Source: an uncultured Micrococcales bacterium
GTDB lineage: Bacteria > Actinomycetota > Actinomycetes > Actinomycetales > Microbacteriaceae
Direction: 5' to 3'
Length of the DNA stretch: 64,000 nucleotides
Assembly: GCA_903909605.1 (NCBI GenBank)
Contig: CAIVWH010000018.1
Location: 25,305-89,304, forward strand
Of the stretch, positions 57,872 through 62,912 are shown one piece after another; the stretch's first letter is position 1; each line of letters starts with the position of its first letter. The translations under genes and the position numbers were made by a program. The notes beneath the pieces were generated by a model that worked only from the letters and a program-made list of their open reading frames with translations, did not search any database and was not told where the DNA came from.

Positions 57872-57872
57872 G

Positions 57873-57944
57873 TGCCCCCGATAGGAATCGAACCTACGCA
57901 CATGGTTTAGGAAACCACTGCTCTATCCACTGAGCTACGAGGGC
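57873..57944 (-). tRNA. tRNA-Arg (anticodon CCT)
   Basis: Minus-strand cloverleaf: acceptor GCCCTCG with CGGGGGC, D-arm GCTCAGTGGATAGAGC, anticodon stem GTGGTT/AACCAT region with loop TTCCTAA, T-arm AGGTTCGATTCCT. CCA not encoded. Its 3' end abuts the MFS start codon (1 base between). tRNA-Arg genes are known insertion sites, but no integrase is visible. Confidence 0.94.
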
Positions 57945-58006: not shown

Positions 58007-61000
58007 GTGTCCGACTCCGTTAACCGCGTTTCAGTGCCCCAGAGCACCTGGGATGCCTGGCTCAGCGAGTTGGAAAACCTCGGCTTCACCAATCCGCTGC
58101 GTAATTTTGAGCGCAACAGTTTCGGTCAAATTGACCTATCCAGCGCGCATCCCGGCGGCTTCTCGCAGTTTGTCGGAGGTGGCCAGACCACGCTGTCGAA
58201 CCTGGTGCGCGACTCTCAGTTGTTTACGGTCGCGCTCGCGGCGGCTCGACGCATCAAGGCCAAGAGTGATTTGCTCGCGTCGCAGTTCGGGCTTGACACC
58301 CTCGGCTTGCTCGGCGGCCTGCTAAATCTTCAACGTGACGGGCTTGATTATCAGCTGCCGATTTTCTTTTGGCCCGTGCGCCTGAATCACCGCCCAGACG
58401 ACTTTGAAGTTGAGCTTGCTGGAGCTGCACGCGTGAACCCGCTTCTGGTCAAAGCACTTCGCGAGAACTATCAGGTTGAACTCGATACCGCTGAATTGCT
58501 TCGACTGGCTGCAGCCTCGAGCGAGATCATGCCGCGCACTGTGGTCGAATACCTCGAGAACAAGATTGCCGGCAAGACCGACATCACCGTGCAGCGGTTG
58601 TTGGCCATCACCACTTTCACCACAGCAGCCATCGAAGCAGTTGGCGACTTTAGTCAAAGCGAAACCTCGGTGATCAGCCGCCTGGCAACTGGTGTTACCT
58701 TCGATGCTGCGACCGAAGTCGAGTCGCAGCGATTCACCCAGATAGTCGACTTGGATTCGGTTCAGACCAGAATCGTCAACCGCGCTCTTGCCGGGCAAAG
58801 TTTCGCTGTCGAGACGCTTCCGGGCTGTGGCTACACGCAAACGGTGCTCAACACGATTTCGGCGCTGGTCGAATCGGGCAAGCGAGTTGTGGTTGCCGCG
58901 CCTCGCACGCAAACGTTGAACGAACTTGCAGACCGCTTTGCCGCGCTCGAACTGCCCGGCTTCGTGGTTCGCTCAAAGTCGGCCTGGCTCGATTTGGTGT
59001 CGGCGATTTCGCGTACCGAGAAGGCCCAGCTGAGCTCGCTGCAGGCAGAGCAATCGGTGCTGGATGCGGCCACCGATGAGTTGGGTCGCTATCACGAGGC
59101 TTTAGCCAAGCAAGACCCGCAACTCGGTGTATCGATCGGACAGACTCTGCAGGAGTTGGCTCGCCTGAGTGGCATGCCACACGCGCCTTCGACGACCGCT
59201 CGTATCGAAAAACAGTTTCTGGTTGCCCACGCCGACCGCACACAGGGGCTAGAGCTGCTACGTCGTGCAGCCGAGGCTGGGTCACTCAGTTTTGGCCCTA
59301 GCGAGAACGCCTGGTTCGCCGCCAAATTTGATGGCAAAGAGCAGATGCTTCAGGTTCGGCAACTGGCACTTCGACTTCAGCGCGAGGATTTTCCCGCTCT
59401 TGCAAAACAGATGGCCGAGTTCGCAGATCGCGCCAAGTTCCGCGAGGCAACGACGGTGGAGCAGTGGGGCGACCAGATTCGACTATTCCTAGGCATTCGC
59501 GAAACTCTGGATCGTTTTGTCTCAGACGTTTTTGACCGGCCGCTGACCGAACTAATTGCGGCGACATCCGCTCGAAAAGAAGCTGGTGTCGGTCGAAGCG
59601 AAATGTCTGGCGGCACTCGTCGCAGGCTCAAGAAGCTTGCCAAAGAATATTTGCGACCAGGGATGCACGTCAGTGACCTCAATGCCTCACTGCGGCAGAT
59701 TCAAGAGCAGCGGGATGCCTGGCACCTGCAGACAACTTCTATCACCGCCCCGAGCGTTCCGGTTGGGCTGGTTGATGCGCAGGTTGCCTATCAAAAATTC
59801 TTGGCCGACATTGAGCAGTTGCAGCGCCACCTCGATGCAGAAGTGAGTAGCTCTCCGCTCACCAAGATTTCTCTCGACGAATTGCAAAAGATTCTTGCCT
59901 CGCTCGAATCTGGAGTTGACGTCTTGGAAACTTACGGAGAGCGCGAGGCTGCGCTCGGCGAATTGAAAGCCGTGGGTCTTGAGCCATTGGCTCGCGATCT
60001 TGCTCGCCTGCATGCAAAGCGAGAGCATCTTGCCGCTGAGTTCGACCTGGCCTGGTGGCAGTCGGCGCTCGAAATTTTGGTTCAGCGAGATTCGACAATC
60101 TTGAAGTACAAGTCAGAGCAACTCGACGCACTCGAGGTTGCAGTTGCAACCGCGCAAGCTGCTCTAGTGCAGCGCGGGGCTGGCCTCCTAGCCTGGCAAC
60201 TCTCCGAGAGATGGCACGCTGCGCTCGCCCAGTACTCCACTCAGGTTGAGGCGCTCAAGCAGACGCTGCGCGGTGGTTCGGCAAGCCTGCTCCAGGTGTT
60301 CCGGGCAGCCAGACCTATTTATGAGGTGCTTGCGCCGGTCGTTTTGGTTTCGCCATTCGAAGCCACGCGCGAGCTTTACGGGCAGAAGTTTGATGTTGCG
60401 CTCATCCTGGATGCGGCAGGCACGACGATTGCCGAAAATCTGGCGGTCTTGAAGCGCGCCGACCAGGCCATATTCTTTGGCGATGAGGCGATCGCCGCCC
60501 CAGAAGGATTCGAGGTCGAGTGCCATGTTCGACCGCTCACTCGAACTGAGCCAGTCGAGTCAGTTTTTGCGGCGGCCCAGCGTGCGTTCGGTCGCGAGAC
60601 CCTGAGGGTCAGCTATCGACCAAACGGGCAGGTGCTGGCGGCGCTGATCAATCGCGAGTTCTATCAAAACCGAATTGTCTTTGAACCCACCGCCGCAGAG
60701 TTCGCAGGAACGCGCTCGCACAGCATCGAAATCATCACTGAGGGCGCCAAGTCGGGCGAGACCATCGGCGGGTCAAACGAAAGCCCCGAGGCTGAACTTC
60801 GCCGAGTGGTCGATCTGGTCTTGAACCACGCACTCTGGCATCCTGAGCAGTCGCTGTTCGTGGCAAGTGCATCCCAGGCCCACGTCGACCGCATTCGCGC
60901 CGCGCTCACCAAGGAGCTGAAGCAAAAGCCAGATCTAGCAACCTTCTTTGATGCCCACGGCAGAGAGAAATTCGAGGTCGTAGGCATTCGCGAACTCGCG

Positions 61001-61675
61001 CACCGACAGGCAGATCGCATCATCTTCTCGGTCGGGTTCGGGTTGTTGCCAGGCGGCGGCGTCGGAAACGACTTCGGTCAGCTGAGTTCATCAGAGGGTC
61101 GTCGATACCTAACCAACACACTGGTCAGCGCGCGCAAGCAAATCACGGTGGTTTCGTGCATCGCATCCCAGCAGATTCCAAATGACGTCACGGATGGCGC
61201 TGCACTGTTGAAGACCTTGCTCGGATCGGCCGAGGATGGCGGGCACCAGCCCGGCGACATCTCGAGTGACTCGTTGCTTGCCGACCTGGCCTCGCGTCTG
61301 CGCCGCCTCGGTGCTCGAGTAGACACCGGCTTCGCGCAGCGGCTGCCTTTGGTTGTCGGCTATGCCAACCAAGCCGCCGTGATCATGCCAGACAGCGCTC
61401 TCGAAGGACGCAACCTGATTGAGCGCTTTGTGCTTCGGCCAAATCTGCTCACCAGTCTCGGTTTCAAATATCTGCGAGTGCACAGCTTTGACCTGTTCAG
61501 CGACCCACAGGCGGTGACCACGCGAATTGCAGCTTGCCTCGGTATGCCAACAGCCCAGACCAACCCGCAACTATTTGATGGCGAGCGCGCTTTTGAAGAC
61601 ACCGACCTGGCCTGGGGTGATCGCTCAGCCGGAAACGACGACCAGCTGCGTCGCGACGTGCCGCCACACTACTAG
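58007..61675 (+). CDS. Helicase-like AAA/REase_MTES_1575-type protein with degenerate active sites
   Basis: A 1222-residue cytoplasmic protein with the layout of DUF4011/AAA helicases that end in a Vsr-like nuclease domain. Residues 1-240 are the N-terminal helicase-associated part. The Walker A site reads ETLPGCGYTQT (272-277 PGCGYT): Tyr replaces the catalytic Lys of PGTGKT. The Walker B region reads LILDAAGTT (802), with no DE pair. Residues 300-760 are coiled-coil-like. RYLTNTLVSARKQITVVSC (about 1035) resembles motif VI with its Arg. The C-terminal part LGFKYLRVHSFDLFSDP matches the end of the MTES_1575 nuclease domain, but the preceding acidic residues are missing. It is probably not an ATPase or nuclease. 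Confidence 0.78.
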   Translation: MSDSVNRVSVPQSTWDAWLSELENLGFTNPLRNFERNSFGQIDLSSAHPGGFSQFVGGGQTTLSNLVRDSQLFTVALAAARRIKAKSDLLASQFGLDTLGLLGGLLNLQRDGLDYQLPIFFWPVRLNHRPDDFEVELAGAARVNPLLVKALRENYQVELDTAELLRLAAASSEIMPRTVVEYLENKIAGKTDITVQRLLAITTFTTAAIEAVGDFSQSETSVISRLATGVTFDAATEVESQRFTQIVDLDSVQTRIVNRALAGQSFAVETLPGCGYTQTVLNTISALVESGKRVVVAAPRTQTLNELADRFAALELPGFVVRSKSAWLDLVSAISRTEKAQLSSLQAEQSVLDAATDELGRYHEALAKQDPQLGVSIGQTLQELARLSGMPHAPSTTARIEKQFLVAHADRTQGLELLRRAAEAGSLSFGPSENAWFAAKFDGKEQMLQVRQLALRLQREDFPALAKQMAEFADRAKFREATTVEQWGDQIRLFLGIRETLDRFVSDVFDRPLTELIAATSARKEAGVGRSEMSGGTRRRLKKLAKEYLRPGMHVSDLNASLRQIQEQRDAWHLQTTSITAPSVPVGLVDAQVAYQKFLADIEQLQRHLDAEVSSSPLTKISLDELQKILASLESGVDVLETYGEREAALGELKAVGLEPLARDLARLHAKREHLAAEFDLAWWQSALEILVQRDSTILKYKSEQLDALEVAVATAQAALVQRGAGLLAWQLSERWHAALAQYSTQVEALKQTLRGGSASLLQVFRAARPIYEVLAPVVLVSPFEATRELYGQKFDVALILDAAGTTIAENLAVLKRADQAIFFGDEAIAAPEGFEVECHVRPLTRTEPVESVFAAAQRAFGRETLRVSYRPNGQVLAALINREFYQNRIVFEPTAAEFAGTRSHSIEIITEGAKSGETIGGSNESPEAELRRVVDLVLNHALWHPEQSLFVASASQAHVDRIRAALTKELKQKPDLATFFDAHGREKFEVVGIRELAHRQADRIIFSVGFGLLPGGGVGNDFGQLSSSEGRRYLTNTLVSARKQITVVSCIASQQIPNDVTDGAALLKTLLGSAEDGGHQPGDISSDSLLADLASRLRRLGARVDTGFAQRLPLVVGYANQAAVIMPDSALEGRNLIERFVLRPNLLTSLGFKYLRVHSFDLFSDPQAVTTRIAACLGMPTAQTNPQLFDGERAFEDTDLAWGDRSAGNDDQLRRDVPPHY

Positions 61676-62238
61676 AACCAGAGCAGTTTGCCCGCGGTGA
61701 CTGCCCCATCAACCGGATGGTCGTGCTCTTCACGGGGCACCTGAATCAGAACCTCGTCGTCGAAGACCACCGCAACGACTTTGGCTCGACGCTTGCCGGC
61801 CGCAAAGACCTGGGCCAGGCTGCGGTCGTAGTAGCCCTTGCCCTTGCCTAGGCGATTGCCGCGCAGGTCGACAGCCATGGCAGGAACGAAGATCAAACCG
61901 GCATCGCCCAACTTTGCGGGCTTGCCTGCTGCCTCTTCAAATCCAAGTTCGCCGAACTCGGTGTTGCCGTCAAAAAAGACCCAGTGCAGGTCTTGGCCCC
62001 GCACACTCGGCAGCATTACCCGAAGCCCGTTCTTTAGCGCCCACTCCAAAAACTCACGGATGTCTGGCTCGCCCTCAATGGGAAAGTAGGCCGCGACCGT
62101 TTCGACCTTTTGGTCGATGCAGAGCTGGCCAAGGGCCTGGCTCAAGCGAGTTGAATAGCTGGCATCTGGCTCTCGAGACTTGCGAGCTTCACGCAGTTGT
62201 GATCGCAGATGCGCCTTCTGGTTGGCTAGTTCATCCAT
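61672..62238 (-). CDS. 5-formyltetrahydrofolate cyclo-ligase
   Basis: ATP-dependent conversion of 5-formyl-THF to 5,10-methenyl-THF. Length 188 is normal. The ATP/Mg region RLGKGKGYYDRSL and the N-terminal KAHLRSQLREARKSR match the family, as does VVFDDEVLIQVPREEHDHPVDG near the C-terminus. Its stop overlaps the stop of the convergent helicase-like gene by 4 bases. The gene sits beside a rimJ-like acetyltransferase as in mycobacteria (Rv0992c-Rv0995). Confidence 0.93.
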   Translation of the reverse strand: MDELANQKAHLRSQLREARKSREPDASYSTRLSQALGQLCIDQKVETVAAYFPIEGEPDIREFLEWALKNGLRVMLPSVRGQDLHWVFFDGNTEFGELGFEEAAGKPAKLGDAGLIFVPAMAVDLRGNRLGKGKGYYDRSLAQVFAAGKRRAKVVAVVFDDEVLIQVPREEHDHPVDGAVTAGKLLWF

Positions 62239-62255: not shown

Positions 62256-62912
62256 GTGGTGCAATCAATCTCGCTGAATGACGGCGACGTTCGAGTCAGG
62301 CTGGCGAGCATGCGCGATGCTAAAGCGCTGCAGCAACTTATGCAGGGCAACCGTGAATGGTTGCGTCCATGGGAGGCCACTAATCCTTACGGGCCAAGTT
62401 CTTTTGACATGAAGTTGCAAATCAAAATTCTGCGCAAGCAGTACAAACTCGGCTCCGCCATTCCGATGGTGATTGAATACGGAAACCAAATCGTTGGTCA
62501 GTTAAATGTTGCAAACATGGTTTACGGATCTGTCTCTTCGTGCGTGATTGGTTACTGGGTAATTCCAGAAGTTGCCGGGCTTGGAATCACGCCGACCGCA
62601 GTTGGACTGATTGGCGATTACCTTGTTGACGAGTTGAAACTGCACCGCATCGAAATCGATATTCGCCCCGAGAATCTGCCAAGTCTTCGAGTAGTCGAGA
62701 AGCTCGGTTTCCGTTTCGAGGGAACCAAGCAGCGCTACATTCACATCAATGGCGCCTGGCGCGATCACTTTGTTTTTGCTCTCACCTCGGATGAGCTAAA
62801 CCAGTCGATTCTGGATCGATGGCTTAACGGGGAGGTTGGTGAAATGAATTACCCATTTCAGACCAAAATCGTTAAACACACCGAGGAAAATCACGAGCAC
62901 TTTGGCAGCTGA
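62256..62912 (+). CDS. GNAT N-acetyltransferase, RimJ-like
   Basis: A 218-residue acetyltransferase of the RimI/RimJ group, which acetylate N-termini of ribosomal and other proteins. The acetyl-CoA region is IGYWVIPEVAGLGITPTAVG, with less Gly than the classic Q/RxxGxG/A. DELKLHRIEIDIRPENLPSLRVVEKLGFRFEG closes the fold. GTG start, 17 bases from the divergent cyclo-ligase. The target protein is not known. Confidence 0.88.
   Translation: MVQSISLNDGDVRVRLASMRDAKALQQLMQGNREWLRPWEATNPYGPSSFDMKLQIKILRKQYKLGSAIPMVIEYGNQIVGQLNVANMVYGSVSSCVIGYWVIPEVAGLGITPTAVGLIGDYLVDELKLHRIEIDIRPENLPSLRVVEKLGFRFEGTKQRYIHINGAWRDHFVFALTSDELNQSILDRWLNGEVGEMNYPFQTKIVKHTEENHEHFGS

Follow-up and report, generated by a model that had tools for sequence, protein, structure and literature searches.

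A conserved pseudo-enzyme with helicase-like and nuclease-like folds and lost catalytic residues in the Rhodoluna-like branch of Microbacteriaceae and in most families of its order

How a 3.7-kb gene stays open when its protein has lost the residues of both its ATPase and its nuclease is the question raised by one locus in the window, by which we mean the whole stretch of 64,000 nucleotides that was analysed. The genome concerned (1.34 Mb in 31 contigs) belongs to the Rhodoluna-like branch of the Microbacteriaceae, and the named records closest to it are those of Rhodoluna and of Microbacteriaceae MAGs. On translation, the reading frame at 58007-61675 of the forward strand has zero internal stops across 1222 residues, as the first-pass annotation had said in reporting 3.7 kb without a stop or frameshift, and its first codon, the GTG at 58007, is matched by a first-codon Met in a relative of 89% identity (L079). 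Sequencing error, frameshift or chance was rejected as the source of the unusual residues, since the same substitutions are common to the orthologs (Tyr276 in 54 of 54 sequences of the Rhodoluna-like set) and the frame is open in all relatives. Table 1 collects the features of the gene and its conserved neighbours.

Table 1. Features of the pseudo-helicase-nuclease gene and its neighbours, in window coordinates
Feature	Residues	Coordinates	Strand	Basis
CDS, pseudo-helicase-nuclease	1222 aa	58007..61675	+	GTG start 58007, stop 61673-61675; homolog searches
N-terminal DUF4011-like region	18-200	58058..58606	+	Conserved columns HPGG, NP; DUF4011 above cut-off in Lys-bearing orthologs, weak in dead ones
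Degenerate Walker A, PGCGYT (Tyr276 codon 58832-58834)	272-277	58820..58837	+	Alignment
Large helical insertion between the two halves of motor domain 1	about 320-770	58964..60316	+	Secondary structure of AF2 model; boundaries approximate
Degenerate Walker B, LDAA (DEAS in Lys-bearing homologs)	801-804	60407..60418	+	Alignment
Motif III remnant, GDEAIAAP (GDxxQLPP in Lys-bearing homologs)	825-832	60479..60502	+	Alignment
Motor 2 with degenerate motifs V and VI	987-1052	60965..61162	+	Alignment; omega 0.024 for aa 901-1085
Vsr/MTES_1575-like nuclease fold	1087-1180	61265..61546	+	Pfam, alignment; omega 0.028
C-terminal tail (FEDTDLAWGDRSAGNDDQLRRDVPPHY), fused form of relatives' separate small ORF	1196-1222	61592..61672	+	Motif comparison
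5-formyltetrahydrofolate cyclo-ligase-like gene (5-FCL), convergent conserved neighbour		61672..62238	-	Synteny
RimJ-like GNAT acetyltransferase, conserved neighbour		62256..62912	+	Synteny

The family assigned earlier (a DUF4011/SF1 helicase ending in a Vsr-like nuclease of MTES_1575 type) is supported by homology and predicted structure. A Pfam HMM search, which had been suggested as a check, gives matches above cut-off in orthologs but not in the window protein itself. All Pfam matches of the latter are sub-threshold (AAA_19; AAA_11 at 15.9 versus 27 bits; MTES_1575, PF18741, at 15.2 bits versus a gathering score of 38.2), and the Pfam search gave no match to DUF4011 (PF13195, gathering score 22.2 bits), whereas orthologs exceed the MTES_1575 gathering score (e.g. 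L043 with 44.7 and L046 with 75.7 bits) and DUF4011 scores 29-51 bits in those with the Walker A Lys (Lys-bearing) against 18.5 and 19.2 bits in dead ones. Similarly, the PADLOC model PDC-S37 gives 212 bits for the window protein and 820-940 for Lys-bearing homologs, and the NCBIfam equivalog cut-offs are missed (ProA 177 versus 1500 bits, Hhe 93 versus 2000). The homology to these anti-phage helicase-nucleases spans the motor and nuclease regions, and the proteins fall in a common tree with the Lys-bearing homologs. An AlphaFold2 model of residues 23-1222, made with 54 relatives (pLDDT 85.9, pTM 0.74), was used with Foldseek and the best PDB matches were Senataxin, IGHMBP2 and UPF1 (these three at E 6e-13 to 1e-9) and Dna2, Aquarius being found as well, with target TM-scores of at most 0.56 that fit the large helical insertion and a different domain spacing. 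Single-sequence search of the window protein found no solved structure; a profile search of the PDB finds SMUBP-2/UPF1, in agreement with Foldseek. Going by the model, the two RecA-like motor domains make up an SF1B helicase fold like that of UPF1/Senataxin, to which a DUF4011-type N-terminus and a nuclease fold of Vsr/MTES_1575 type are joined.

The register of the catalytic residues was set by alignment with relatives that keep PGTGKS and DEAS. The Walker A Lys is replaced by Tyr276, exactly as had been read in PGCGYT. For Walker B the earlier reading needed correction; the letters DAAG are indeed present at residues 802-805, but the acidic pair corresponds to Leu801-Asp802, as FDEAS of motif II aligns with ILDAA such that the Mg-binding Asp has become Leu801 and the catalytic Glu Asp802. 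To these we can add losses that the first-pass annotation did not list, namely the motif III Gln (now Ile829), the motif VI Arg (Ser1041 by alignment) and the motif V signature, where VQGDERD reads LAHRQAD. In most other Microbacteriaceae motif VI is TRAR, and therefore the loss of motifs is furthest advanced in the Rhodoluna-like branch. The claimed loss of nuclease residues from the Vsr-like C-terminus is also seen, with Pro1114 in place of the 'iDl' Asp and Met1127 in place of the 'IExD' Glu; Asp1129 is kept, as it is in all the sequences aligned at this position, and outside Rhodoluna the IExD Glu is a common residue. Also retained are Asp250 and Gln253 of the Q-motif, the P-loop glycines and the motif III GD (825-826), so that nucleotide may still be bound. 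The replacement residues are themselves conserved within the Rhodoluna-like set, Tyr276 without exception and Trp1130 in 46 of 50 sequences.

Homologs were found in all well-assembled genomes of each set, to which these counts are confined: 35 of 35 in a mixed genus/order set, 137 of 137 in the family and 119 of 119 in the order, and the few missing homologs are due to incomplete assemblies. A genome of only 927,303 bp (G072), about the size of that of Tropheryma whipplei, has a full-length copy with PGAQVT at Walker A, and a 0.8-Mb genome of family f4 also carries a homolog, which is cut short in the stretch examined. Across the phylum, homologs are sporadic and mostly have GKS/DEAS. dN/dS was estimated by the Nei-Gojobori method against L079, for which dS is 1.2 and the values hence approximate; omega is 0.056 for the gene, while 5-FCL has 0.068, GNAT 0.055 and the membrane protein that comes next 0.17. 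Within the gene, the N-terminus and helical insertion have an omega of 0.07 and motor 1B/2, nuclease and tail one of 0.021-0.029, so that on this estimate the most constrained parts are those supposedly dead. A decaying gene, i.e. an ortholog in the course of being lost, would account for the disappearance of most catalytic motifs, but the loss is older than the family, the gene is universal, omega is lowest in the dead core and the replacement residues are conserved. At the level of sequence evolution decay is refuted, and we give it next to no credence. The ortholog comparison that had been proposed to settle this point gave strong selection and syntenic GKS/DEAS orthologs in two families only, rather than intact PGTGKT and DE orthologs combined with relaxed selection. 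The earlier suggestion that the protein is kept although dead is thus upheld by universality and purifying selection, while the structural partner or decoy that it offered as examples of another job is a hypothesis. We are nearly certain that the protein is a conserved, non-decaying pseudo-enzyme, and very probably its function is a non-enzymatic one.

In the order as a whole, Lys276 is present in only 7 of 189 distinct sequences, all from 2 of about 20 families (f5 and f18). Elsewhere in the order the residue is G, Y, A, Q, V, R, H, T, S, P or D, and in some families the P-loop glycines are lost as well. In the maximum-likelihood tree most families have their dead sequences in a single clade (UFBoot 100) beside the Lys-bearing f5 and f18 orthologs, and within f18, which otherwise keeps GKS/DEAS, a second group (L249, L250 and L167) lost the Walker A Lys independently. 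The nesting of f5 and f18 is weak (62), which makes the basal branching order uncertain. It may be added that one f18 sequence (L244) keeps GKT/DEAS with the motif III Gln lost, possibly an intermediate stage of loss. Separately, Lys-bearing orthologs of the order (L034, L046 and L235) lack two nuclease residues that most out-of-order homologs have, the Glu of helix A and the His following IExDG, hinting that the nuclease may have degraded earlier than the ATPase.

The gene order in Microbacteriaceae, at all loci with enough flank, is helicase, (mscL), 5-FCL, (galU) and RimJ GNAT, and in most genomes of the order mscL or 5-FCL lies near the gene, including three Lys-bearing cases. Dead and Lys-bearing genes therefore occupy a common locus, and the gene is thus vertically inherited. 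In the window the helicase gene overlaps the convergent 5-FCL by 4 nt at their 3′ ends (61672-61675), whereas the gap is about 230 nt in most other Rhodoluna-like loci. Immediately upstream of the gene, at 57872-57944 on the reverse strand, is a tRNA-Arg(CCT), which is again found close by at other Rhodoluna/Aquiluna loci and at some loci of the order. At the loci compared, the gene does not form a conserved operon with genes of DNA repair. AdnA/AdnB-like and PcrA-like helicases are present in the window genome but unlinked to the gene, and a linked recombination partner was rejected as the UvrD-family genes sit elsewhere in the genome. A phage gene was also rejected, a pattern scan of IMG/VR having given no relatives, as was a dead copy next to an active paralog in Rhodoluna, where there is one match per intact genome.

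The last ~27 residues, of the form EDTDxAWGD..NDxxLxxDxPPH[WY], terminate the protein in the Rhodoluna-like branch and in several other families. Elsewhere, which is to say in most relatives, the helicase ends earlier and the motif closes a small ORF (median 76 aa) that follows directly downstream in the same direction; in 36 of 112 cases there is a 4-nt overlap between the helicase stop and the earliest start that this ORF could use. Of 110 non-fused loci, 98 have the motif; on the opposite strand it occurs at 2 of 110, and among 1015 control windows in 1. Codon-position bias and an omega of 0.07-0.38 show that the small ORF is coding; some of these ORFs overlap the helicase frame, which makes their start positions uncertain, and no Pfam or NCBIfam family matched. 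The tail is predicted to be disordered save for a short helix and is of low confidence in the AF2 model. The same peptide is found without the helicase, adjoining mscL, in Streptomyces-like genomes; it is present in 73 of the 148 class genomes sampled, usually in one copy. As it also occurs alone in other Actinomycetia, the peptide is older than its link to the helicase, to which it was repeatedly fused, and as Streptomyces has it without the helicase, its function need not depend on the latter. The stand-alone Streptomyces-like protein of ~58 aa ends in DDTDxGWGE...L..(E/D)(K/R)PPH[WH] (L308:8222-8405 and L309:8840-9212, both on the reverse strand, L310 and L311), and has the look of a class-wide microprotein that is as yet uncharacterised. 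The peptide is missing from all four of the Lys-bearing homologs that come from outside the class (L162, L163, L165 and L166), and from a few dead lineages such as the 927,303-bp genome. The idea that the tail is a docking tag shared by many proteins of one genome is not supported, since in Rhodoluna genomes this gene alone was matched at E<=1; further matches to PPH[WY]-stop are short chance frames, and the PPHYW ones belong to a conserved membrane protein.

Taken as a whole, the best explanation, which we hold to be probable, is an ancient vertically inherited pseudo-enzyme that acts as a catalysis-free nucleic-acid scaffold docked through its peptide to a putative partner. Sequence comparison establishes the losses and their depth, the universality, synteny and purifying selection, and the linkage and fusion of the peptide; the scaffold mechanism has an even or somewhat better than even chance. 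A helicase-nuclease of the DUF4011/PDC-S37 kind would have become a core gene in the ancestor of the order, and its sporadic occurrence outside the order suggests a mobile source of the defence type for the original acquisition. The ATPase and nuclease residues would then have been lost in most families, with fold and gene retained. The groove of the two motors together with the nuclease fold may grip nucleic acid or an RNP without catalysis, the large helical insertion may serve as a platform, and the WGD..PPH[WY] peptide, fused or as a separate small protein, would dock the protein to its putative partner, a logic like that of RecC/AddB subunits or pseudo-PriA. More speculatively, the catalysis-stripped defence-type helicase-nuclease and the class-wide PPH[WY] microprotein might, coupled or fused, form a two-part core complex that is universal in Actinomycetales, and possibly essential, as a non-catalytic hub of nucleic-acid metabolism. 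A literature search gave nothing on PDC-S37, on PPHW or on any pseudohelicase belonging to this family. Most pseudo-enzymes are isolated oddities, whereas here a 3.7-kb gene with both sites lost is present in all well-assembled genomes of the order that were searched, including those below 1 Mb. The syntenic orthologs with intact ATPase that survive in two families amount to a natural experiment in which a likely defence-type enzyme turned, twice, into non-catalytic housekeeping, and the conserved tail peptide offers a concrete handle for a partner search.

Other roles have to be weighed against this one. The protein could still be an enzyme or a nucleotide switch, binding nucleotide without the Lys or catalysing another reaction in a remodelled nuclease pocket, which would suit the retained Q-motif Asp250/Gln253, P-loop glycines and motif III GD as well as the invariant Asp1129 and the IExD Glu common outside Rhodoluna. 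Yet the Lys position is variable across the order, the glycines are missing from some families and the Rhodoluna-like lineage has lost the motif II Asp that binds Mg, and we regard this as improbable. The predominance of RNA helicases among the closest solved folds (Senataxin, UPF1, Aquarius and IGHMBP2) would rather suggest a scaffold on the RNA side, a UPF1/Senataxin-like pseudohelicase serving transcription, ribosomes or RNA decay and not DNA. But Dna2 was matched too and fold similarity does not fix the substrate; also the nuclease fold is of the Vsr-like, DNA type and there is no linkage to RNA genes, so that we consider an RNA role unlikely. An immune decoy or sensor, in which a dead copy of an anti-phage helicase-nuclease baits phage inhibitors, is very doubtful. 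The top PADLOC/NCBIfam matches are indeed anti-phage models (PDC-S37, Hhe and ProA), but decoys are usually patchy and fast-evolving, whereas this gene is universal, syntenic and slow-evolving amid housekeeping genes, has no active paralog to protect in Rhodoluna genomes (one match per intact genome) and is retained in strongly reduced genomes.

The catalysis-free scaffold that we prefer has counterparts among known systems. RecC and AddB are dead helicase-fold subunits of recombination complexes, in which helicase-like and nuclease-like folds are kept without catalysis as a scaffold or reader; these are of UvrD-like SF1A ancestry with fixed operon partners, while the window protein is of UPF1-like ancestry and has no linked motor. 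The PDC-S37/DUF4011 helicase-nucleases (also NCBIfam ProA and Hhe) have the identical domain order with alignable motor and nuclease, but they retain GKS/DEAS/GDxxQLPP as well as the nuclease residues and occur sporadically outside the order, whereas the window protein has no key ATPase residue left and is encoded by a core gene. The Vsr-like C-terminal fold is shared with the MTES_1575 REase (PF18741), whose founding protein in Microbacterium testaceum is about 2000 aa long and contains transglutaminase, HEPN and wHTH domains (PMC3710099); at 1222 aa, the window protein is without these three domains, and the nuclease Asp and Glu (positions 1114 and 1127) are gone. A DUF4011 gene of P. aeruginosa at the defence hotspot cDHS1 is described as a hotspot flank (PMC10250203), and it resembles the window gene in being core. 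The PriA of Deinococcus radiodurans has no ATPase but still binds DNA and makes contact with DnaB (PMC4504706), and Utp25 is a pseudohelicase that has lost its Walker motifs and retained its fold (PMC9539457). In both, as in the window protein, the Walker motifs are gone and the fold is kept, but they belong to other helicase superfamilies and have no dead nuclease domain, whereas here two activities have been lost, nearly order-wide.
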